Shown: one piece after another, positions 6,052-14,838 of the stretch | Layout of the letters: each line of letters starts with the position of its first letter | Numbering within the stretch: position 1 is the stretch's first letter | NCBI GenBank assembly: GCA_945867245.1 | Contig: CAMBHQ010000007.1 | Span: forward strand, 1 to 16,406 | Direction of reading: 5' to 3' | DNA length: 16,406 bases | Source: an uncultured Porphyromonas sp. | GTDB lineage: Bacteria; Bacteroidota; Bacteroidia; Bacteroidales; Porphyromonadaceae | Position numbers and translations under genes: made by a program | The notes under the pieces: model-generated | Seen by the model: the letters and a program-made list of their open reading frames with translations, nothing else | Databases searched by the model: none | What the model was told of the DNA's origin: nothing

Positions 6052-6200
6052 CAGTATGCAGTATGCAGTATGCAGTGGTCAGTATGCAGTATGCAGTGAT
6101 CAGTGGGCGGGCTTAAGCCCGCCATGCTAGATCTAGTGGGCCTAGTGAGACTAGTGGGCCTAGTAATACTAGATCTAGCGTGCGCCAGCCACTAGTGATC
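6052..6200. repeat. Heptamer intergenic element, copy A
   Basis: Eight exact 7-base units run from 6052 to 6107: CAGTATG three times, CAGTGGT, CAGTATG twice, CAGTGAT and CAGTGGG. The perfect palindrome GGCGGGCTTAAGCCCGCC at 6106-6123 follows. Next is a CTAG-rich stretch with repeated GGGCCTAGT, and then the shared 19-base core CTAGCGTGCGCCAGCCACT at 6175-6193. The right heptamer arm is almost absent. The element fills the gap between the A+T-rich glycosyltransferase and the TM2 gene and ends just before a TAnnTTTG motif. Copies B, C and D share the core and heptamers. Confidence 0.9.
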
Positions 6201-6216
6201 TCTTATAAAGAATTAG

Positions 6217-6224
6217 TACCTTTG
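6217..6224 (+). promoter_or_regulatory. Bacteroidota -7 promoter element for the TM2/DUF2752 unit
   Basis: TACCTTTG matches the TAnnTTTG consensus. It sits 41 bases before the TM2 gene start, directly downstream of repeat element A. No TTG lies at the expected distance upstream, so only half of the consensus is present. Confidence 0.5.
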
Positions 6225-6265
6225 CTCTGTAGTACTCAGTCTAACATTTTATAAACAAGAAACCT

Positions 6266-6610
6266 ATGGATAGTCAGAAGGTAGACCTCTTCTTGGCGAT
6301 GAACTCTAAGCACTTCGCCCCTCACTTACTGCCACAGATACGTGAGCAACTGCTAGGCCTCGACGACAGTAAGGCACTAGCGATACAAGCTCAGGAGTTT
6401 AAGGACCCTACAACGATGCTCATAGTATCTTTACTTGTCGGTATTTGGGGCATTGATAGATTCCTTATCGGTGATGTCACTTTGGGCGTCGGCAAGCTCC
6501 TTACTGGCGGTGGCTGTGGTGTATGGGCTATTGTGGATTGCTTCCTTATCATGGATGCTACCAGAGAAAAGAACTATCAAAAGTTACAGGAAGTAATACG
6601 CTACTACTAG
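6266..6610 (+). CDS. TM2-domain membrane protein
   Basis: This is a 114-residue small membrane protein. Residues 1-48 are a charged, helical cytoplasmic N-terminus. Residues 49-96 form a TM2 domain: two hydrophobic helices (about 50-64 and 74-96) joined by the typical WGIDRFLIGD turn, then GVGKLLTGGGCGVWAIVDCF, where the glycines and final Asp are characteristic. The C-terminal tail is charged. TM2 proteins are widespread and their biochemical role in bacteria is not settled. Three bases after its TAG comes a DUF2752 gene. This pairing recurs in Bacteroidota, so the two probably work together in the inner membrane. The start ATG 6266 follows a -7 promoter motif with a short A-rich leader. Confidence 0.88.
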   Translation: MDSQKVDLFLAMNSKHFAPHLLPQIREQLLGLDDSKALAIQAQEFKDPTTMLIVSLLVGIWGIDRFLIGDVTLGVGKLLTGGGCGVWAIVDCFLIMDATREKNYQKLQEVIRYY

Positions 6611-6613
6611 GAG

Positions 6614-7033
6614 ATGCCCCTGTCTCGCCAACGACTAACAGCATTAAGCCTTACCCTCTCGCTATTAACTTATGCGTGGGTAGGGCTTAATTGGCTTTTG
6701 GCCGGTCGGGACCATGGTCTTGACTTGACTATTTGCCCGATACGACTGGCCACAGATGTCCCCTGTGCTAGCTGTGGTACTACTAGAGCTATATGCGCTT
6801 TGGCCGAGGGGCAGTGGCTAGAGTCGCTTGCGCTCAATCCCTTGGGACTTGTGATCGTTGTGGCAACGATAACAAGTAACCTATGGCTGGCCTACGACGC
6901 CCTTACAGGGAGGCAGAGTTATTATCAGTCCTACCTCAGAGTGGCGCTTAGCCCCAGACGGCGGTATATCGCCCTAGCTTTCTGCACTCTGCTATTTATC
7001 AATGGCCTGTGGAATATCCTCAAGGCCCACTGA
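6614..7033 (+). CDS. DUF2752-family membrane protein
   Basis: This 139-residue protein has the hallmark of the DUF2752 family: CPIR at residues 41-44, then VPCASCGTTRA at 49-59 (Cys51, Cys54, Arg58), and NPLGL at 75-79. Three hydrophobic segments (about 8-29, 77-96 and 117-136) suggest an inner-membrane protein with the cysteine motif near the membrane surface. The cysteines could bind metal or form a disulfide, but the family has no established activity that I know of. An AGGAG overlapping the TM2 stop region lies one base before the ATG, which supports this start and coupled translation. The last codon and stop (TGA 7031-7033) lie inside a heptamer of the next repeat element. Confidence 0.87.
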   Translation: MPLSRQRLTALSLTLSLLTYAWVGLNWLLAGRDHGLDLTICPIRLATDVPCASCGTTRAICALAEGQWLESLALNPLGLVIVVATITSNLWLAYDALTGRQSYYQSYLRVALSPRRRYIALAFCTLLFINGLWNILKAH

Positions 7034-7069
7034 TCACTTCGGGCTCTGCCCGCCCCACCGTCCACTGAC
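7028..7069. repeat. Short heptamer element, copy A' (reverse orientation)
   Basis: This short copy has CACTGAT at 7028-7034 and the 14-base hairpin block CGGGCTCTGCCCGC at 7040-7053. CCCACCG and TCCACTG heptamers follow at 7054-7067, all in 7-base phase. It lacks the 19-base core. It overlaps the end of the DUF2752 gene and ends about 11 bases before the pnp -7 motif. Confidence 0.75.
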
Positions 7070-7079
7070 TTATTTTCTC

Positions 7080-7087
7080 TATCTTTG
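7080..7087 (+). promoter_or_regulatory. Bacteroidota -7 promoter element for pnp
   Basis: TATCTTTG fits TAnnTTTG and is followed by TAGC, as at the lptC and histidine-rich gene promoters. The predicted start of transcription is about 7094, giving a leader of roughly 45-50 bases before ATG 7142. No clear TTG lies about 20 bases upstream. Confidence 0.55.
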
Positions 7088-7141
7088 TAGCTGATAATAA
7101 AAGGTTTTACAGATATAAATACAATTAACGAGACAGATTCT

Positions 7142-9373
7142 ATGCTGAATCCAATTAGCAAGAGCATCTTCTTGCCTGATGGTCGTGAGATCATTATCGA
7201 GACAGGCAAGCTGGCCAAGCAGGCCGATGGTGCCGTTACCGTGCGTATGGGTAACACAATGCTTCTGGCCACGGTATGTGCCGCCAAGGATGCTAACCCC
7301 GGGGTAGACTTCATGCCCCTACAGGTCGAATACAAGGAGAAATTTAGTGCTATTGGTCGCTTCCCTGGGGGCTTTACGCGCCGTGAGGGTAAGGCCAGTG
7401 ACTACGAGATATTGACTTGCCGTCTAGTGGACCGTGCTCTGCGCCCACTATTCCCCGATGATTATCATGCTGAGGTATTCGTAAACGTTACCCTATACTC
7501 TAGCGATGGCGTAGATATGCCCGACGCGCTCGCAGGACTTGCAGCTAGTGCAGCCCTCGCCGTGTCGGACATTCCTTTTAATGGCCCTATCTCTGAGGTG
7601 CGTGTAGCTCGTGTAGACGGCCAGTTCGTGATCAACCCTACCTTCGAGCAGCTAGAGCGTGCCGACATCGATATGATGGTCGGTGCTACCCTAGACAACA
7701 TCATGATGGTAGAGGGCGAGATGCAGGAGGTGCAGGAGAGCGAGATGCTCGAGGCTATCAAGGTAGCACACGAGGCTATCAAGATACAGTGTCAGGCGCA
7801 GCTAGAGCTTAGCGCAGCCTGTGGCAAGCTAGAGAAGCGCACTTACTGCCACGAGGAGAACGACGAGGACCTACGCCAGGACGTCAAGGACCAGTGCTAT
7901 GCCAAGGCTTATGCCGTGGCTACCTCGGGCACCGACAAGCACACACGTGCCGAGGCCTTCGCCAAGATTCTCGAGGACTACAAGGCTGACTTCCTAGAGG
8001 AGGAGCTCGCAGAGAAGGGCGCTATGATCAACCGCTACTACCACGATGTAGAGAAGGAGGCTATGCGCCGTGCTATCCTAGACGAGGGCAAGCGCCTAGA
8101 CGGCCGTAAGACTACCGAGATACGCCCTATCTGGATAGAGACCGACTACATCCCTGGGCCTCATGGCTCGGCTGTCTTCACCCGTGGCGAGACGCAGTCG
8201 CTCACGACTGTTACCCTCGGGACGAAGGACGATGAGAAGCTCGTCGATGACGTGCTCAACTACGGCAAGGAGCGCTTCCTGCTGCACTACAACTTCCCCC
8301 CATTCTCTACCGGCGATGCACGTCCACAGCGTGGCGTAGGCCGTCGTGAGATTGGCCACGGCAACCTAGCGCACCGCGCCCTCAAGCGTGTCCTACCCGC
8401 AGACTACCCTTATGTACTACGTGTGGTGAGCGATATCCTAGAGTCCAACGGCTCTAGCTCTATGGCTACGGTATGTGCCGGTACGCTGGCTCTGCGTGAT
8501 GCTGGTGTACATATTACGGCCCCTGTATCGGGTATTGCGATGGGTCTCATCAGCGAGAACAAGGGACAGAACTATGCCATCCTATCCGATATCCTCGGGG
8601 ACGAAGACCACCTCGGCGATATGGACTTTAAGGTAACAGGTACGGCCAAGGGTATCACTGCTACGCAGATGGATATCAAGGTCGATGGCCTCTCCTACGA
8701 AATCCTAGAGAACGCCCTAGCACAGGCTCGCGAGGGTCGTCTGCACATCCTCGGTAAGATGCTAGAGGCTCAGCCCGAGGCACGCCCAGACTTCAAGGAG
8801 CACGCCCCTCGTATCGAGACGCTGCGTGTGGCTAAGGAGTTCATCGGTGCTATCATCGGCCCTGGCGGTAAGATTATCCAGGGTATGCAGGAGAAGAGCG
8901 GTGCCAAGATCAGCATCGAGGAGATCGATGGCGAGGGCCGCGTAGAGGTAAGCGCTGCCAACAAGACGGCTATCGACACGGCTATGGGTATGATCAAGGC
9001 TATCGTAGCTATGCCAGAGGTAGGCGAGGTGTACGAGGGTAAGGTAAGCTCTATCATGAGCTTCGGTGCTTTCGTAGAGTTCATGCCAGGCAAGGACGGT
9101 CTACTGCACATCAGCGAGATAGACTGGAAGCGCTTCGATACGATGGAGGAGACAGGCATCACCGAGGGGCAGACCCTACGTGTGAAGCTACTGGATATTG
9201 ACCCCAAGACGGGCAAGTTCAAGCTAAGCCGTCGTGCCCTCCTCGACAAGCCCGAGGGCTATGTAGAGCCCGAGCGTCGCCCACGTCCTGAGCGTGGCGA
9301 GCGTGGCGACCGCCGCCCACGCCCCGAGCGCGGCGAACGTCGCGAGCCTCGTGAACCCCGTGGCGATAACTAA
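7142..9373 (+). CDS. pnp: Polyribonucleotide nucleotidyltransferase (PNPase)
   Basis: PNPase degrades RNA 3' to 5' by phosphorolysis as a homotrimer in the cytoplasm, releasing nucleoside diphosphates. The 743-residue protein has the full layout: first RNase PH domain (about 12-145, with [17 protein letters not shown]), helical linker (about 150-310), second RNase PH domain (about 320-545), KH domain (about 557-618, with IIGPGGKII), and S1 domain (about 628-698, with [20 protein letters not shown]). The catalytic motif [13 protein letters not shown] is intact; by comparison with E. coli Asp486, Asp492 and Lys494, these are Asp489, Asp495 and Lys497. The last 35 residues form an Arg/Pro/Glu/Gly-rich tail with two copies of RPRPERGER, likely disordered and RNA-contacting. 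It is a single-gene unit with its own promoter and terminator. Confidence 0.98.
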
Positions 9374-9395
9374 GGCATAGCCTAGACAGACAAGT

Positions 9396-9438
9396 AAAGC
9401 CCCCGCACTGCGATGTAATAGCAGTGCGGGGGCTTTTT
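9396..9438 (+). terminator. Intrinsic terminator of pnp
   Basis: A perfect 16-base-pair stem (9396-9411 with 9421-9436) encloses a 9-base loop and ends in TTTTT. It lies 23 bases after the pnp stop codon. The last T of the tract is also the first base of the heptamer element B. Confidence 0.93.
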
Positions 9439-9668
9439 AGTGGTCGGTGGGGCGGGCGGAGCCCGCAGTGGTCAGTGGCTAGTGGTGCGGGCAGAGCCCG
9501 CAGTGGTCAGTGGCTAGTGGTCGGTATGCAGTGGCTAGTATCCCTAGTAATACTAGCCCTAGCGTGCGCCAGCCACTGACCACCAGCCACTGATCACTAG
9601 CCACTAGTATTACTAGCCCTAGCGTGCGCCAGCCACTGACCACTGCTCACTGACCACTGCCCACTAGC
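9438..9668. repeat. Heptamer intergenic element, copy B (longest; core present twice)
   Basis: The stretch 9438-9556 reads as 17 consecutive 7-base units. It contains TAGTGGT, CGGTGGG, two 14-base hairpin blocks (9452-9465 and 9487-9500, GCGGGC/GCCCG type), CAGTGGT, CAGTGGC, CGGTATG and TAGTATC. The core CTAGCGTGCGCCAGCCACT follows at 9559-9577 and again at 9619-9637, 60 bases apart. Reverse-complement heptamers (CACTGAC, CACTGAT, CACTAGC) lie after each core. The element fills the whole gap between the pnp terminator and the stop codon of the convergent lipoprotein gene. Confidence 0.92.
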
Positions 9669-11336
9669 CTAGAACCAGCGGCCGGTGCTCTCGTCTATCT
9701 CGCCCGATAGGCGGAGGTCCATATCCGTGGCTAGAGAGACGAAGTCAATGCCTAGGAGCTTGAGTAGGGCACGGACGATAGGCTGATGCTTAGCTGATAG
9801 GTCCTCGACACTGCCATCGGGGTCTAGGTTGCCCGTGGCATCTCTGTCTAGCCAGGTATAGCAGGGTATCTGCACGCTTAGGAGCTTACTGCCTGTCTGT
9901 GTGATATGTGTCGAGGGTGTGTGCGCTGGCGAGAGCTTGCCGTCGCTACCGGCCTTGCCCTGTGGCGTGGCCCAGAGCTGTAGGTCGAGCATAAACTGTC
10001 GGTCGCCCTTATTGAATACGAAGTAGCCCTTGTGTCCGAAGGGGTCTCTGTCGCCAATGCGGTGCGTACGCTTGCTGTGTGCCGATTCGTTCCACAGCTG
10101 TGTATCCCAGTAGGTGTAGCTGAGGAAGTCCTCTGCGCGCTCCTGTACGGCCTCGCCTGTCGAGAAGCTACGGATATGTCGAGGCTGGTAAAAAATCTGA
10201 TGCTGAGCGCCTGCGAATTCGCCTGTTATATCCTGCCCCGAGGCATCGTAGAGACTCGTGAAGAGGCCGTACACAGGCATACCGAGTTGCCCCGCATCAT
10301 AGACCTTAGCCTGCATCATCAGTAGACGCTTGATGTCGCCCGAGGTAATCTGCCACTGGCCCTCGCGCCACTCGATTGTCATCTCCTGCTCGACGGCTAG
10401 ATTCTTGTAACGGAAGTCCTGAGAGCCTGGCACATAATGAAACTCAGGCCCGTGCATATGCCCCTCTAGGAGCTCTAGCTTAATCTTGCGGATACGGGTC
10501 GTATTGCTCCCGCCGAGCTTGGTCGTATTCATATCCGGAGCCGCTCCAGGCGTCTCGGGACCAGCGGGCTGTGCCTCGGGTGTGGCGGGTACGTCGCCTG
10601 CGCTACTGCCCTCCTCGCGGAAGAGTAGCTCTACGGAGATATCCATATCGCTGATGGTGCGTAGCTTACGCTCGGGGGCATAGTAGGGGCTAAGGCTGCC
10701 ATCCTCGAGGTACTTGCTCTTGTAGGCGTGTAGGAGCTCGGCCTTGATGGCTACCTGACCGAAGGCCTTTGGGAAGGCGAAGTAGCCCTCGAAGCCTAGG
10801 GGATTTTCCTTGCCGACAAGCTTACCCTCTAGGCGGTCGGCATAGAGGTAGCTGTAGGGGATGAGCGCGGGTTCGCGTACTAGGCGCTTATCGAGGTACA
10901 GAGAGAAGAAGTGCTGGTGGATCTTGTCCTGTCCGTTGTGGATGAACTGTGTATTCATCGCCTGTCCCGAGGGCGAGAAGTAGGCGATATCGAGCTTGTA
11001 CACCGTGTTGGGGCTAGTAGCCTGCGCCTTGACGACGAAGCTCTTGGCCGATCCCTCGGCATAGCCCCAGGAGGCATCACCTTTCTGCTCCCATACTATC
11101 TGCTGGGTCTTCGTGGTGGCAGTGATGCCAGCGATGGCGTTGTAGTCGAAGGTGCTGCCCTCGGCTAGCTCGGCCTCGGTGAGGGTATAGATAACCTTGC
11201 TGGGGTTCTCGTGGAGCTTATTCTCTATTTCGTTCTTAGGCTTTACGGGCTCGCTCTTGTCGCAGGCCGAGAGGCCTAGTAATGCTATCAGGGCGTAGCG
11301 AGCTAAGCGCCCTATGGATTGGAATTGCTTAATCAT
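9669..11336 (-). CDS. Lipoprotein with a duplicated domain, possibly metal- or haem-linked
   Basis: I do not recognise the family. Starting at ATG 11336 gives 555 residues with a clean lipoprotein signal ending LLGLSAC (Cys25). A longer TTG-initiated frame (11393) would bury that signal and is rejected. Two divergent copies of one domain are separated by a Pro/Ala-rich linker (about 247-268). GFEGYFAFPKAFGQVAIKAEL (181-201) parallels FGHKGYFVFNKGDRQFMLDL (433-452), and SYLYADRL parallels SYTYWDTQL. Near residues 125-142 and 370-387 both copies carry a Gln/His-rich stretch. The second copy also has GHMHGPEFHY (292-301), a possible metal site. The gene follows a histidine-rich small protein on the same strand, so a role in metal or haem capture at the outer membrane is possible. 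That function is inferred from composition and neighbours only. Confidence 0.75.
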   Translation of the reverse strand: MIKQFQSIGRLARYALIALLGLSACDKSEPVKPKNEIENKLHENPSKVIYTLTEAELAEGSTFDYNAIAGITATTKTQQIVWEQKGDASWGYAEGSAKSFVVKAQATSPNTVYKLDIAYFSPSGQAMNTQFIHNGQDKIHQHFFSLYLDKRLVREPALIPYSYLYADRLEGKLVGKENPLGFEGYFAFPKAFGQVAIKAELLHAYKSKYLEDGSLSPYYAPERKLRTISDMDISVELLFREEGSSAGDVPATPEAQPAGPETPGAAPDMNTTKLGGSNTTRIRKIKLELLEGHMHGPEFHYVPGSQDFRYKNLAVEQEMTIEWREGQWQITSGDIKRLLMMQAKVYDAGQLGMPVYGLFTSLYDASGQDITGEFAGAQHQIFYQPRHIRSFSTGEAVQERAEDFLSYTYWDTQLWNESAHSKRTHRIGDRDPFGHKGYFVFNKGDRQFMLDLQLWATPQGKAGSDGKLSPAHTPSTHITQTGSKLLSVQIPCYTWLDRDATGNLDPDGSVEDLSAKHQPIVRALLKLLGIDFVSLATDMDLRLSGEIDESTGRWF

Positions 11337-11502
11337 ACGTTTTTTCTTTTGGATGTGATTTATGACGCCACTGCTCGTAGCTGTGTATATCAAGCTAGGG
11401 GCACAAGCACGCAGTACGAGCCCTTAAGGTCGTAGGCCACGTGCCAGTGCAGTATGATGCAATGGCTTCTGTTAAGTTTTGGTAGTTGGGTCGGAGTCTA
11501 TG

Positions 11503-11844
11503 TTACCCTTGTACTAGACTCGGGGGAGCACGTAGGGAGAAAAAACGTGGGCTTGCCATGCTCGGCGGAGCGGGACAAGCGGCGGCCCTTAGGAGGACAT
11601 AGCTCTCGGCGGGGGCCACGATAGGCAGAGGCAGGCCGAGGGTGCTAGGGGCGAGGTTGTGCGTGGGTAGCTCGCAGTCGCCGTGGTCCTGATGGTAGTG
11701 TAGCTGTGTGCTACAGTGGTGGTCTAGAGGCCGTGTATGATGTGGATGGCTCTGTATATGCACGGCGAGGAGCCCCAGGACGCATAGATACATCCCGAGG
11801 AGCCACTGGGCAACAAGCCTCTGCAAACGTTCTCGTCTGTGCAT
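11503..11844 (-). CDS. Small histidine-rich exported or membrane-anchored protein
   Basis: This protein has 113 residues. Residues 9-29 form one hydrophobic segment after a basic start (MHRRERLQR), so it is either an uncleaved anchor or a signal peptide. Residues 29-62 contain ten His, two Cys (44, 57) and several Asp, including HPHHTRPLDHHC and HYHQDHGDC. That is a strong candidate for metal binding in the periplasm. The end (FFSLRAPPSL) resembles the R-x-PP tails of small Bacteroidota proteins found beside metal-uptake genes; this is a loose resemblance. The ATG lies only seven bases after a TAACTTTG -7 element, so the mRNA should be leaderless. The 555-residue lipoprotein follows 166 bases downstream with no promoter motif seen between, so the two are probably co-transcribed. 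Confidence 0.75.
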   Translation of the reverse strand: MHRRERLQRLVAQWLLGMYLCVLGLLAVHIQSHPHHTRPLDHHCSTQLHYHQDHGDCELPTHNLAPSTLGLPLPIVAPAESYVLLRAAACPAPPSMASPRFFSLRAPPSLVQG

Positions 11845-11851
11845 AACGCTA

Positions 11852-11859
11852 CAAAGTTA
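11852..11859 (-). promoter_or_regulatory. -7 element placed directly on the start codon of the histidine-rich gene
   Basis: On the minus strand the sequence reads TAACTTTGTAGCGTTATG, with the -7 box at 11859-11852 and ATG at 11844-11842. The predicted first transcribed base is at or next to the A of ATG. It is preceded by CCCACTAATAATCAC, which is also found before the lptC promoter. Confidence 0.6.
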
Positions 11860-11867
11860 GTGATTAT

Positions 11868-12038
11868 TAGTGGGCTGTGGTGCGGGCGGAGCCCGCAGTG
11901 GTCAGTATGCAGTGGCTAGTGGTCGGTATGCAGTGGCTAGTATTCCTAGTGAGACTAGCTCTAGCGTGCGCCAGCCACTGATCACCGACCACCGATCACC
12001 GACCACTGATCACTAACCACTGATCACTAGCCACCGGC
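11868..12038. repeat. Heptamer intergenic element, copy C
   Basis: From 11868 the units run in phase: TAGTGGG, CTGTGGT, the 14-base hairpin block at 11882-11895, then CAGTGGT, CAGTATG, CAGTGGC, TAGTGGT, CGGTATG, CAGTGGC and TAGTATT up to 11944. The core CTAGCGTGCGCCAGCCACT is at 11961-11979. Nine reverse-complement heptamers run from 11976 to 12038: CACTGAT, CACCGAC, CACCGAT, CACCGAC, CACTGAT, CACTAAC, CACTGAT, CACTAGC and CACCGGC. This is the most symmetrical copy, with both arms well developed. Its left end leads straight into the promoter of the histidine-rich gene on the minus strand. Confidence 0.92.
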
Positions 12039-12123
12039 CACCTAATAGGCAGACGATCGTCCGCCTACCGAGTCGCCACTCGTCCGCCTATTAGGCGGAC
12101 AAATGCTCGCCTAGTAGGTGGCC
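12036..12123. repeat. Nested inverted repeats upstream of the first peptide-lipoprotein cassette
   Basis: An outer pair (12036-12050 and 12109-12123, GGCCACCTAATAGGC type) matches with one mismatch. Inside lie an imperfect 22-base palindrome at 12046-12067 and the near-perfect hairpin GTCCGCCTATTAGGCGGAC at 12082-12100. All are built from the word TAGGCGGAC and its complement. With the end of element C and the promoters that follow, this accounts for the 440-base gap between the genes starting at 11844 (minus) and 12285 (plus). I see no gene in that gap. Confidence 0.75.
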
Positions 12124-12175
12124 AAGTGGCCCTCTAGTAAGTGCTGAGCAAAGCTCTGAGTAACTATAGGAGCTA

Positions 12176-12232
12176 TTGGATGATAAAAGAGTTTTTTATA
12201 TTTGCAAAAGTCTTATATTGTTTGTACCTTTG
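12176..12232 (+). promoter_or_regulatory. Promoter region of the first peptide-lipoprotein cassette
   Basis: TTTG at 12201-12204, a 20-base spacer and TACCTTTG at 12225-12232 form a full Bacteroidota promoter. An overlapping possible second one uses TTG 12176-12178 and TATATTTG 12197-12204 with an 18-base spacer, so the same TTTG could serve in both. Transcription from the downstream promoter would start near 12238, giving a leader of about 47 bases that contains a run of ten T (12266-12275). Confidence 0.75.
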
Positions 12233-12284
12233 CAGGCAAACAACAGCCCATACATCAAAGTATTGTTTTTTTTTTGTAAACATT

Positions 12285-12470
12285 ATGGATATTTCATTGC
12301 AAGAGGCCTCCCGAAGGTCTTATGTAGCTCCGAGTATAACTCGCTGGGGGCTATCCAGTGCACAGCACTTACTTAACTCATTCTCATTCAGAGGTAGCGT
12401 TTCGGACTGGGAACTATCGGTCGATGAGGTAGAAGTCACACAAGACAATAATCTAGAATGGTGGCAATGA
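12285..12470 (+). CDS. 61-residue acidic peptide, paralogue of the one at 15819
   Basis: No known family was recognised. Starting at ATG 12285, the first ATG after the promoter, the product has 61 residues. Residues 10-21 are RRSYVAPSITRW, followed by a Leu/Ser-rich middle with LLNSFSFRG, and then an acidic tail (WELSVDEVEVTQDN) ending LEWWQ. It aligns with the 61-residue peptide at 15819 at Y-x-x-P-x-I-x-x-W-x-L, then LN, then the acidic Trp-containing end. Short proteins with a Y-x-P-x-I/V motif are common beside Bacteroidota surface-lipoprotein genes. There is no signal peptide. Its TGA overlaps an ATG of the next gene (ATGA at 12467-12470), so it may couple translation, act as a regulator or partner of the lipoprotein, or be a precursor. 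A longer reading with a start at 12141 lies upstream of the promoter and is rejected. Confidence 0.7.
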   Translation: MDISLQEASRRSYVAPSITRWGLSSAQHLLNSFSFRGSVSDWELSVDEVEVTQDNNLEWWQ

Positions 12471-14683
12471 TTATGAAGAAAACAGCGCTGATATTATGCG
12501 GGTTACTATTACTCGCCAGTACATCGTGTCAGAAAGAAGAGACGAGAGCCACTGAGCCGACTGAGGCCGTGGCTGAGTATCAAGGCGAAGAGTTTTCGCT
12601 TGATATAAATGTTAGCCTAGATGAGGATGCTCTATTGCCCTCCGAACAGAGTCTGCGTAGCATTAGCCTGGGGCACGAGGAGGTAACGCAGCAGGGCAAG
12701 CAGGTGATGAAGCCTACGATACGTCTGGCAGAGGGCAATAATACCAAGATGCGTATCTTCCTGCGCAAGCTAGGAGACCCCGAGAGCCTGACGATGTTTG
12801 ATGCTCCTGTGAAAATTAGCCGTGATGCAGCGACGGGTACCTACCGCTTCGAGCTGCTGCAGGAGGCAGTACGTCTGAAAAAGGCACTCTCCAAGATTAC
12901 CGAGGGCGAGTGGTATATATCCGGCTTCTATGGCGGTAATAACCTCGCACAGTCGACGAGTCAGGAGCAGTATAATATCCAGATACAGGGGGCGAAGTCG
13001 AGTGCCACTACCAGAGAGAGCGTATTCGAGTATAATTTCCCGCTGGCTTTCGGCTGGAGCAAGCTAGAGCGTTCGGAGCGCTCGGGTAACAAGAGCTATG
13101 GTATGCACCACAACCTGCGCCTCAAGCCTGTGGGGACGCTCCTCGGCATAGAGCTAGAGAACGATTTGCTAGAGAGCGTTACGCTCAGCTCCGTAAAGAT
13201 GAGTGGTACTGATGCAAGCTTCTCGGGGAGCTTCGTCCCCTCTAGAGATAACGATGATGCGCTTAGGGCGGGCTCTGTGCCTACTTTTAGTCCTACGGCA
13301 TTATCCTCTACGAGCGACCCCGTCATCGAGAAGAATATCAATCCCAATCCTGTCGTCCTCCCTGCAGCACAGCGCTACAATGGCCGTCTGTACGTGTGGT
13401 TTATGCCACTGCATCAGGGTGATGAGACTATACGCTTTACCCTAGAGGCTGCCGAGCGCAAGAGCAATAGTAGTCCAGACGTATCGGAGAAGGATAGGTT
13501 CGTTGTCAAGAATAAAGAGGCTACGTTTCGCGATTCGTTCCGCTACGCTGTCTCTGTATCCGGAGGCTTCCAGTCGGGGCGTGTGTATATCTTCCCGCTC
13601 CGAGTATCCTCGGACCTCATGATTACCGAGGTCTACCATAAGTATGACAATGGCCTTAGCTATGCGGCCGTAGAGCTATACAACCCCAATAAGACGCCTA
13701 TCGACCTCAGCGACTATGCCCTAGCGCGCGTCAAGAATCAGTTCCTCAATGTCGAACACTGCATAGCGCCTAGAGGTGACAAGTGTATCGCCCCGAAGGT
13801 TGAGATACATCAGAAGTACTACACGCTCTATCCGCCTAGCTTCGATGAAAATAACCGTTCGGAGGCTAATGCTCTTATCCTGCCCCTTAGCCTAAGTACT
13901 ACGCACAATTGGTCGCCCTATCGCCTAGGAGTCAATAGAGACAACAAGACTCAGGGTGGAGCTGCCGACTATAGCGCTAGTAATCCCATCAAGCTACGCT
14001 TCCTCACGGAGTCTGGCTATGGCACGCTAGATAACAATACCTTGCCTGCAGGTGCCAAGCCTATGCTACAGGGAGGCAAGACACTGGTGGTCCTAGGCGA
14101 TGGCTATCAGCCAGCTAACGCTACGCTCAAGAGCGGAGGCCTTAGCGCTCAGCTCTACGAGGCTTACAAAAAAGGCTATTGCCAGTATATCGTAGCACTA
14201 GACAATCGCTCTACGGCTGCCAAGAGCTCGGAGATTAAGAATGATAACCAAGGGGGCTTCAGCGGTAATCGGAAATCGGGCGTTATGAACCTCCGCTATG
14301 AGGATGGGCTACTACTGGTCAAGCGCATCAGACAGCAGGGCGGAGAGACCCGCAGAGTCATAGACACTACGACGCCCAACCTCTACAGCGGTGGTCAGGA
14401 TGAGGGTTACAAGACCGGTAATGCCCTAGAATACTGGCTGAATATGATGGACCTAAAGGGAGAAAACCGTAAAGAGAAGGCGACAGCTGTATACTCTGCC
14501 AACTATCAGACGCGTACGGTCATCGAGCGCCTGCCTTCGTACGGATGGTCTAGGCATCACTGGAATGTGCATCGCCAAACGGATAATTTGGATAGAGTGG
14601 TGAGCCTAGGGTCGCGCAGATGGCTCGGTAGTGGCGATCAGGCTTCGTGGGCTGCGGTGCCACAGTACAGCCTCCCTCAGTAG
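12467..14683 (+). CDS. Fimbrillin-like lipoprotein with lamin-tail-like domain
   Basis: This large lipoprotein has 738 residues from ATG 12467, or 736 from ATG 12473; the signal MKKTALILCGLLLLASTSC favours one of these over ATG 12458. After the lipidated Cys comes QKEE, which fits the X-K-(D/E)2 surface-export signal described for Capnocytophaga lipoproteins, so it is probably exposed on the cell surface. Residues about 40-375 resemble fimbrillin-type beta-sandwiches, with KPTIRLAEG and TKMRIFLRKLG at 82-103 and LKPVGTLLGIELEN further on. From about 386, ITEVYHKYDNG, then AAVELYNPNKTPIDLSDYAL, looks like a lamin-tail (LTD) domain. The remainder is unassigned and rich in Tyr, Trp and Asn. It forms a cassette with the peptide gene upstream. 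An adhesin or pilus-associated role is inferred, not shown. Confidence 0.8.
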   Translation: MIMKKTALILCGLLLLASTSCQKEETRATEPTEAVAEYQGEEFSLDINVSLDEDALLPSEQSLRSISLGHEEVTQQGKQVMKPTIRLAEGNNTKMRIFLRKLGDPESLTMFDAPVKISRDAATGTYRFELLQEAVRLKKALSKITEGEWYISGFYGGNNLAQSTSQEQYNIQIQGAKSSATTRESVFEYNFPLAFGWSKLERSERSGNKSYGMHHNLRLKPVGTLLGIELENDLLESVTLSSVKMSGTDASFSGSFVPSRDNDDALRAGSVPTFSPTALSSTSDPVIEKNINPNPVVLPAAQRYNGRLYVWFMPLHQGDETIRFTLEAAERKSNSSPDVSEKDRFVVKNKEATFRDSFRYAVSVSGGFQSGRVYIFPLRVSSDLMITEVYHKYDNGLSYAAVELYNPNKTPIDLSDYALARVKNQFLNVEHCIAPRGDKCIAPKVEIHQKYYTLYPPSFDENNRSEANALILPLSLSTTHNWSPYRLGVNRDNKTQGGAADYSASNPIKLRFLTESGYGTLDNNTLPAGAKPMLQGGKTLVVLGDGYQPANATLKSGGLSAQLYEAYKKGYCQYIVALDNRSTAAKSSEIKNDNQGGFSGNRKSGVMNLRYEDGLLLVKRIRQQGGETRRVIDTTTPNLYSGGQDEGYKTGNALEYWLNMMDLKGENRKEKATAVYSANYQTRTVIERLPSYGWSRHHWNVHRQTDNLDRVVSLGSRRWLGSGDQASWAAVPQYSLPQ

Positions 14684-14684
14684 G

Positions 14685-14838
14685 GCGGGCAGAGCCCGCA
14701 GTGGTCGGTGGCTAGTGGGGCGGGCGGAGCCCGCAGTGGTCAGTGGCTAGTGATCAGTGATCAGTTGCTGGCGCACGCACGATACTGCCCACCGACCACC
14801 GACCACTGCCCACTGCCCACTGCCCACTAATAATCACT
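14685..14838. repeat. Heptamer intergenic element, copy D (inverted relative to A-C)
   Basis: In-phase units are a hairpin block at 14685-14698, CAGTGGT, CGGTGGC, TAGTGGG, a second hairpin block at 14720-14733, and CAGTGGT, CAGTGGC, TAGTGAT, CAGTGAT, CAGTTGC up to 14768. The core lies in the opposite orientation, as GCTGGCGCACGC at 14767-14778. The reverse-type arm follows: CACCGAC twice, CACTGCC three times, CACTAAT, AATCACT. The 7-base phase runs right up to the lptC promoter. The element starts two bases after the stop codon of the preceding lipoprotein gene. Confidence 0.9.

Follow-up and report, generated by a model that had tools for sequence, protein, structure and literature searches.

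The window analyzed here is a 16,406-nt stretch of DNA from an uncultured Porphyromonas sp. (contig CAMBHQ010000007.1), whose genome (G000) is a 1.37-Mb draft of 270 contigs with 54.6% completeness. Between its genes, the window carries five gaps filled by heptamer elements, namely copies A, B, C, and D and a one-armed piece, all of which read as in-phase heptamers across most of the arm length. Each complete element consists of a left arm of YAGTR-NN heptamers, a center, and a right arm built from the reverse-complement heptamers, with both arms running inward. These elements are a variant of the known intergenic heptamer repeats, and the surprising part is the inward rule together with the exchange of the heptamer between relatives.

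Copy A begins with a left arm of eight in-phase YAGTR heptamers (6052-6107, plus strand). Its center contains a GGCGGGCTTAAGCCCGCC hairpin (6106-6123), assigned from sequence and folding, and a nine-base array, (CTAGTNNNN)n, on the plus strand at 6133-6172 (matches at 6133-6163 and 6142-6172), which an earlier note on this DNA had missed; an exact 19-base core (6175-6193, plus strand) is then followed by a mere trace of the right arm. The one-armed piece (7028-7069, minus strand) comprises six in-phase ACT-type heptamers with a GGGCTCTGCCCG block, and its first heptamer includes the TGA stop codon (7031-7033) of the upstream open reading frame (ORF) at 6614-7033. Copy B, which follows a distinct hairpin that resembles a terminator and has a T run, has a left arm (9438-9542, plus strand) with two 14-base GCGGGC blocks (9452-9465 and 9487-9500); this arm counts 15 units in phase, not the 17 reported previously. 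Two exact 19-base cores on the plus strand (9559-9577 and 9619-9637) enclose right-arm heptamers (9578-9606, minus strand), and the right arm proper (9634-9668, minus strand) directly abuts a minus-strand ORF ending at 9669. Copy C is composed of a left arm (11868-11944, plus strand) with one GCGGGC block of 14 bases (11882-11895), an exact 19-base core (11961-11979, plus strand), and a right arm (11975-12038, minus strand). In copy D, the left arm (14685-14766, plus strand) holds two such 14-base blocks (14685-14698 and 14720-14733) and leads to an inverted 12-base part of the core, GCTGGCGCACGC (14767-14778, minus strand), and to a right arm (14784-14831, minus strand), which is followed by a TANNTTTG promoter-like motif, TACCTTTG. 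Of the four gaps said earlier to contain the core, three thus have the exact 19-base form (from 6175; 9559 and 9619; 11961), whereas the gap at 14685-14838 has the inverted 12-base part alone; the piece at 7028-7069 has none. Near these copies, a 36-base tandem repeat at 9271-9345 falls within the final part of the PNPase gene and encodes an arginine-rich tail, the long minus-strand ORF at 9669-11351 has no Pfam match, and a further repeat, composed of CCTAATAGG and GTCCGCC segments that include inverted copies, adjoins copy C at 12038-12110 and is also found beside elements in L054, L059, L062, L063, and L065.

The seven-base periodicity described in the earlier note is real. Identity at lag 7 reaches 0.71 in 63-base windows, compared with at most 0.49 at lags 5, 6, 8, and 10; the value of up to 0.68 at lag 9 is due to the second, nine-base array. 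A cluster finder detected 4 clusters in the window, whereas 200 dinucleotide shuffles averaged 0.01 (maximum 1), the 42-base, one-armed gap at 7028-7069 being the one it missed. No Rfam family matched the window at the gathering score.

The repeat unit is best written as YAGTR-NN, and 353 of the 458 units counted in the stretches of G000 belong to five types (AGTGGTC, 118; AGTGGCT, 90; AGTGGGC, 64; AGTGATC, 47; AGTATGC, 34). Alternatively, each unit can be viewed as TRNNYA, a nearly palindromic hexamer, with one extra base that is G in left-arm units and C in right-arm units, so that the arm direction is set by this single base. The core GCTGGCGCACGC, small variants allowed, lies in or near 21 of 54 clusters defined by the same rule, in one orientation in 12 and in the other in 9, and some elements also contain a GGCGGGC hairpin and the nine-base array. 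The distance across the center keeps the same phase in 12 of 15 two-armed cases. The 14-base GCGGGC block, proposed to replace exactly two heptamers, does keep the seven-base phase in 21 of the 29 cases with a readable neighbor on both sides and breaks it in the remaining 8; a further 7 blocks are without readable neighbors.

The elements occur genome-wide. The pattern (YAGTRNN)3YAGTR has 124 matches in the draft and 3 for the reversed control, and 54 clusters lie in stretches taken from 19 contigs, of which 16 carry arrays and 3 do not (under a slightly different rule, 56 against 3 in the reversed sequence). All 30 two-armed clusters are AGT-inward; among the one-armed clusters, 16 have the left arm only and 8 the right arm only, some of them being halves of one element divided by a long center. 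Clusters are absent from the stretches of C2, C8, and C9. Composition does not support a chimeric draft as the cause of this uneven distribution, as the tetranucleotide correlation of these stretches with C7 is 0.87 to 0.92 and their CTA share of leucine codons is 0.25 to 0.37, compared with 0.30 in C7; breakage of the assembly at repeats is another possible cause.

The elements sit in intergenic gaps, often directly next to a stop codon, a terminator, or a promoter-like motif. Mechanical ORF calling assigns 0.88 of the DNA as coding, whereas the clusters have an average coding overlap of 0.14, and many clusters start within a few bases of an ORF end or stop codon. The motif TANNTTTG, which we take to be the Bacteroidota promoter motif, lies within 60 bases outward of 15 of 64 outer arm ends, as against 1.5% of random places. 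For the 49 clusters with two neighboring genes, the orientations are 18 (>>), 14 (<<), 11 (<>), and 6 (><), with a background of 73, 55, 20, and 17, respectively. These placements bear on the idea that the elements are bidirectional transcript terminators or insulators, in which both strands form long hairpins after a stop codon. In its favor, besides the frequent contact with stop codons, folding beats 60 dinucleotide shuffles in four of the five window gaps (z -3.8, -9.0, -4.3, and -5.2; -0.5 for the 42-base piece), and the folding energies are similar on the opposite strand. However, divergent gene pairs are not avoided (11 of 49 clusters against 20 of 165 in the background; for the named loci described below, 8 of 69 and 83 of 434, respectively), and copy B is preceded by a separate terminator-like hairpin, so we regard termination or insulation as a highly improbable explanation of the elements. 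Long hairpins on both strands may nevertheless affect transcript ends as a side effect.

The same inward layout is found in other phyla. A convergent pattern with four units per arm matches 38 IMG/VR stretches, whereas its divergent control matches none, and it matches at least 120 stretches of named genomes. The matches listed (80 loci) include Chloroflexi and relatives, Planctomycetes, Acidobacteria, Deltaproteobacteria, Bacteroidetes, Lentisphaerae, Elusimicrobia, a betaproteobacterium, Geitlerinema, and others, with Chthoniobacter flavus Ellin428 and Alkalitalea saponilacus DSM 24412 among the named strains. With three units per arm, 662 inward matches, overlapping ones counted, were obtained in 35 genomes compared with 0 outward matches in 38; the 38 comprise G000 and 37 genomes picked for having at least one inward element, a choice that alone cannot yield zero outward matches. 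The 80 named loci contain 100 clusters, 92 of which are left-then-right and seven one-armed, the last being two elements in a row. A looser array finder also returned 13 inverted pairs outside the AGT class (left arm G-richer in 7, C-richer in 3, equal in 3), which are too few to assess polarity. The centers differ between lineages, are unrelated in other phyla, and can recur within one lineage. In addition, reading the outward pattern backward as a control (RTGAY left, RTCAY right) gave 70 matches in G441, G459, G448, G455, and G435 and 0 in the opposite order; these are either AGTGATC arrays or another inward heptamer family, and they were not used as a second polarity family because AGTGATC arrays match too.

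The earlier note had left room for the core and heptamers to be confined to this DNA. The heptamers and their layout are widespread, whereas the 19-base core was found in this genome alone; an extended core pattern has 0 matches in 84,980 named species, a set from which the species of the window is possibly absent, and the 43 matches of a 16-base core pattern in IMG/VR are probably mostly chance.

We compared 25 congener genomes with G000. Four-unit YAGTR matches occur in three of them (G001, 1; G021, 3; G025, 5), and a CTAG nonamer center pattern, that of the nine-base array in copy A, occurs in five (21 matches in G001, 68 in G021, 11 in G023, 7 in G024, and 32 in G025, with 30 in G000); it is absent from the other 20, and the control gave 0 in all genomes. 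At the gap downstream of PNPase, no paired YAGTR units were found within 300 bases in the 12 congener loci parsed, of 25. In G001 and G024, the nonamer center is surrounded by a different heptamer, TTAGARR. TTAGARR triplets number 193, 87, 222, 166, and 319 in G001, G021, G023, G024, and G025, respectively, with 0 to 4 in the controls; there are none in G000, and the single one in G008 equals its own control. These arrays of the five congeners are telomere-like in sequence. Within 400 kb of G001, there are 18 TTAGARR clusters (1 in the reversed sequence), all with less than 30% coding overlap, and the four two-armed clusters are all TTAGARR-inward; over all subclade loci examined, 11 TTAGARR arms are inward and 0 outward. 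The heptamer can therefore differ between congeners with a common center type.

Orthologous gaps of the congeners differ in arm length. The left arm differs by 14 bases between G001 and G024 in a gap of 97.6% identity, by 28 bases between G001 and G021 in a gap of 91.9% identity that differs elsewhere by 11 and 5 bases, and by 22 bases in a second G001/G024 gap of 89.0% identity. The nonamer center is aligned in all three gaps, save for one difference in the last that is weighed below. Among IMG/VR contigs, some that are 99.8% identical differ by one 7-base unit, and among 15 indels located within arrays of near-identical contigs, 7 have a length of exactly 7 bases, some events being counted repeatedly as the contig pairs overlap. 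As seen partly in relatives, the arms thus change by whole units, often two or four at once, while the center persists in orthologous gaps. Growth and shrinkage by unit around a fixed core, as suggested in the earlier note, is accordingly supported by the congener gaps and near-identical contigs, the closest comparison genome to that of the window having 88% PNPase identity. A different change was observed between L118 and L287, where a near-perfect 72-base tandem duplication lies in a repeat-filled gap of otherwise identical contigs.

In related IMG/VR contigs, 28 occupied elements, some of them the same element on the other strand, have an orthologous gap lacking AGT arrays. Of the 16 such gaps displayed, several contain heptamers of the GTTCAAA, TTTCGGT, and CAGNAAA types or GTAGGGGCGG hairpins. 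The GTAGGGGCGG...CCGCCCCTAC hairpins occupy gaps in L292, L295, L301, and L108 where related contigs have heptamer elements, as if both shared a niche. Such exchange of heptamers, in these gaps and between congeners, is a difficulty for the proposal that the arms are arrays of binding sites, with YAGTR and a two- or four-base spacer recognized by a DNA- or RNA-binding protein and the inward order serving looping or cooperative binding. The retention of YAGTR at period 7 in the arms and period 9 in the center (322 and 76 same-strand pairs) and the promoter-like motif near the arm ends agree with this proposal, and a post-transcriptional regulator binding TAACTGA repeats has been put forward (MacGregor 2015; PMC4679880). 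However, the elements lie between genes of every relative orientation, the congener arms consist of TTAGARR without YAGTR, and the heptamers in the same gap of related contigs are unrelated; binding-site arrays therefore seem to us very unlikely.

The order of the units within the arms is also informative. As the earlier note had observed, heptamer variants are reshuffled: in G000, identical neighbors are rarer than under within-arm permutation (34 of 275 against 49.0 expected, z -3.3) and identical next-but-one neighbors are commoner (49 of 215 against 38.6 expected, z +2.5). The pooled named loci show the same pattern (z -2.8 and +4.6), and three small sets have no neighbor bias either way. 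This deficit is not predicted by plain replication slippage of a seven-base unit in selection-free DNA with arms inverted by chance, since single-unit slippage should make neighbors alike. Slippage would account for the seven-base indels and for the excess of identical neighbors in one IMG/VR lineage, and a survey by Mrazek et al. (2007), as cited in PMC4679880, is reported to have found heptanucleotides more common than any other repeat class in most of its genomes. Moreover, five-unit YAGTR arrays are present in 95 of 395 Bacteroidota genomes, with the reversed control also frequent in some (395 against 99 in G150), so heptamers as such are common. Nevertheless, neither a common center type under different heptamers nor the inward polarity is predicted by slippage, an account already strained by the latter, and we hold it to be quite unlikely.

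The two arms of an element match each other poorly. In 22 elements of G000, the within-element complementarity of the arms is below the between-element null (z -2.5 and -2.3), and the same deficit was found in 27 elements of one IMG/VR lineage (z -3.2 and -3.1). Such a deficit is consistent with the loss of long perfect palindromes and not with the copying of one arm from the other. Fold-back copying should make the arms of one element resemble each other more than they resemble the arms of other elements; the opposite is seen in two of the three lineages, for which such copying was accordingly rejected, and the third lineage, with 7 elements, is neutral. Arm pairing that is weaker than chance within a family speaks against transcript terminators as well.

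The outer ends of the arms raise the question of a mobile element of the miniature inverted-repeat transposable element (MITE) or REPIN kind, in which the heptamer arrays would be terminal inverted repeats, the polarity would reflect the orientation of the ends, and the transposase would lie elsewhere. In G000, a T begins the outermost unit of 29 of 35 arms, whereas it begins 82 of 334 inner units (Fisher p 1e-11). A TA target site could produce such a bias, which also exists in the named loci (22/116 against 60/877) and the IMG/VR contigs (14/60 against 21/481). The dispersal of the core in both orientations (12 and 9 of 21 clusters) and the almost identical nonamer sequence of three dispersed centers in G001 (1064015, 1129745, and 1193231) are also what a mobile element would produce. 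However, arm lengths are variable with no fixed outer end seen beyond the terminal T, and most T ends could also be stop codons or flanking T runs. Eight of the nine window ORFs of at least 150 codons end with TAG, and outer heptamer units often start with TAG. In addition, the heptamer differs between congeners that share a center type, the centers of other phyla are unrelated, and no target duplication is evident at the single nearly unoccupied site, an almost empty gap in the comparison of L321 (a Chloroflexi draft) with L318 (Ardenticatenaceae CFX1), taxa other than that of the window. No transposase domain was detected among the 9 window proteins scanned, the genome outside the window not having been searched for transposases or RAYT. 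We consider a mobile element unlikely.

Previous studies describe several related repeats. One-sequence intergenic heptamer repeats, TAACTGA, are known from Beggiatoaceae, Cyanobacteria, and Bacteroidetes, mixed heptamers from Microcystis, larger heptamer assemblages from Elizabethkingia, and 7-base indels from Cyanothece strains (MacGregor 2015; PMC4679880). Like the present elements, the TAACTGA repeats are tandem 7-base intergenic units with many sets per genome, scattered over phyla, and TAACTGA read on the other strand is TCAGTTA, which contains AGT. In contrast, the TAACTGA sets have one dominant sequence and are mostly short direct repeats, with one indirect repeat in the Maribeggiatoa genome, and the available part of that account describes no two-armed inward layout, center, or heptamer exchange (PMC4679880). 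The TAACTGA unit (AGTTATC on the other strand) is not present in the displayed elements, and the 30 commonest of the 458 units are AGTGGTC, AGTGGCT, and the like, the counting pattern itself excluding AGTTATC. Other heptamers, GGGNATC in Xanthomonas and Nostoc (PMC4692102), GGGACCG and MTYCTGA in Geobacter metallireducens (PMC2700814), and GATAGRA in Chloroflexus (PMC6749651), are likewise 7-base tandem repeats, often intergenic, at many sites per genome; however, their sequences differ, and the portions consulted describe no inward pair of arms around a center. BrickBuilt, a minisatellite MITE of Porphyromonas gingivalis, resembles the present elements in being intergenic and multicopy with a tandem array within inverted ends, but it has 23-base units, IS5-type terminal repeats, and a leader and tail (PMC4596501). 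No period-23 array was reported in the window, and the IS5-type terminal repeat GAGACCTTTGCA is not enriched in it (3 matches with two mismatches against 2.1 expected). REP and REPIN (repetitive extragenic palindromic) sequences are also extragenic, palindromic, and present in many copies, but they are fixed 20-40-base palindromes with a tag such as GTAG or CGTC, and seven-base periodicity is unmentioned in the parts of the sources available (PMC3733652, PMC3116915). With their 7-base tandem units beyond chance and many, mainly intergenic sets, the present elements belong to the broad kind of intergenic heptanucleotide repeats, so the earlier suggestion that no such family had been described holds only for the layout: no published description of the inward layout or of the heptamer switch was found in the portions of the literature searched, which lacks most subscription journals.

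Taking these observations together, we favor, with a probability of roughly one half, the reading that the elements are a directional, unit-stepped intergenic satellite, whose heptamer arms run inward to a lineage-specific center and overwrite dispensable DNA. A directional process would extend the same repeat toward the center from both flanks, which is our proposed reason for the inward rule. The unit steps and the mixed units could arise where strands misalign or templates switch at the five-base YAGTR match, and long perfect palindromes would subsequently be lost, which would explain the poor match of the two arms within an element. A specific gene-regulatory role is unnecessary for such a satellite. 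Several observations weigh against it. No element was observed growing in the species of the window, and we know of no enzyme for such repeat writing. In the second G001/G024 gap, the 22-base step is not a multiple of 7, and a 28-base difference takes the center edge and part of the right arm. The looser array finder returned 1 outward pair beside 55 AGT-inward pairs, the IMG/VR lineage with alike neighbors has its excess at both steps (z +2.4 and +2.9), as plain slippage would give, and the seven elements of the neutral L090 lineage lack the complementarity deficit (z +0.4 and -0.7). Finally, the scattered recurrence of the core, like the T at the ends of the outer units, fits a mobile element.

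A bolder and doubtful reading, to which we give little weight, starts from a DNA break at which one repeat sequence is added to the 3' end on either side; sealing the break would then place the two extended ends head to head, as telomere fusion does, and would yield exactly the inward geometry. If this were true, bacteria of many phyla would have an activity that heals breaks and in doing so writes heptamers particular to the lineage into the DNA between genes, whether from a template in the manner of telomerase or through repeated extension by a polymerase, and the TTAGARR arms and the exchange of heptamers under a common center would represent a change of template.

Bacterial intergenic DNA is usually read as regulatory or neutral. 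Here, one directional rule is seen in Chloroflexi, Planctomycetes, Acidobacteria, Bacteroidetes, Verrucomicrobia, and others, and the gaps change by whole units. The inward rule is strict enough that any proposed mechanism can be tested against it, and the congeners, with their persisting centers and variable arms, provide a ready comparison. It also calls for caution, in that hairpins or promoters called in such gaps may reflect repeat debris.

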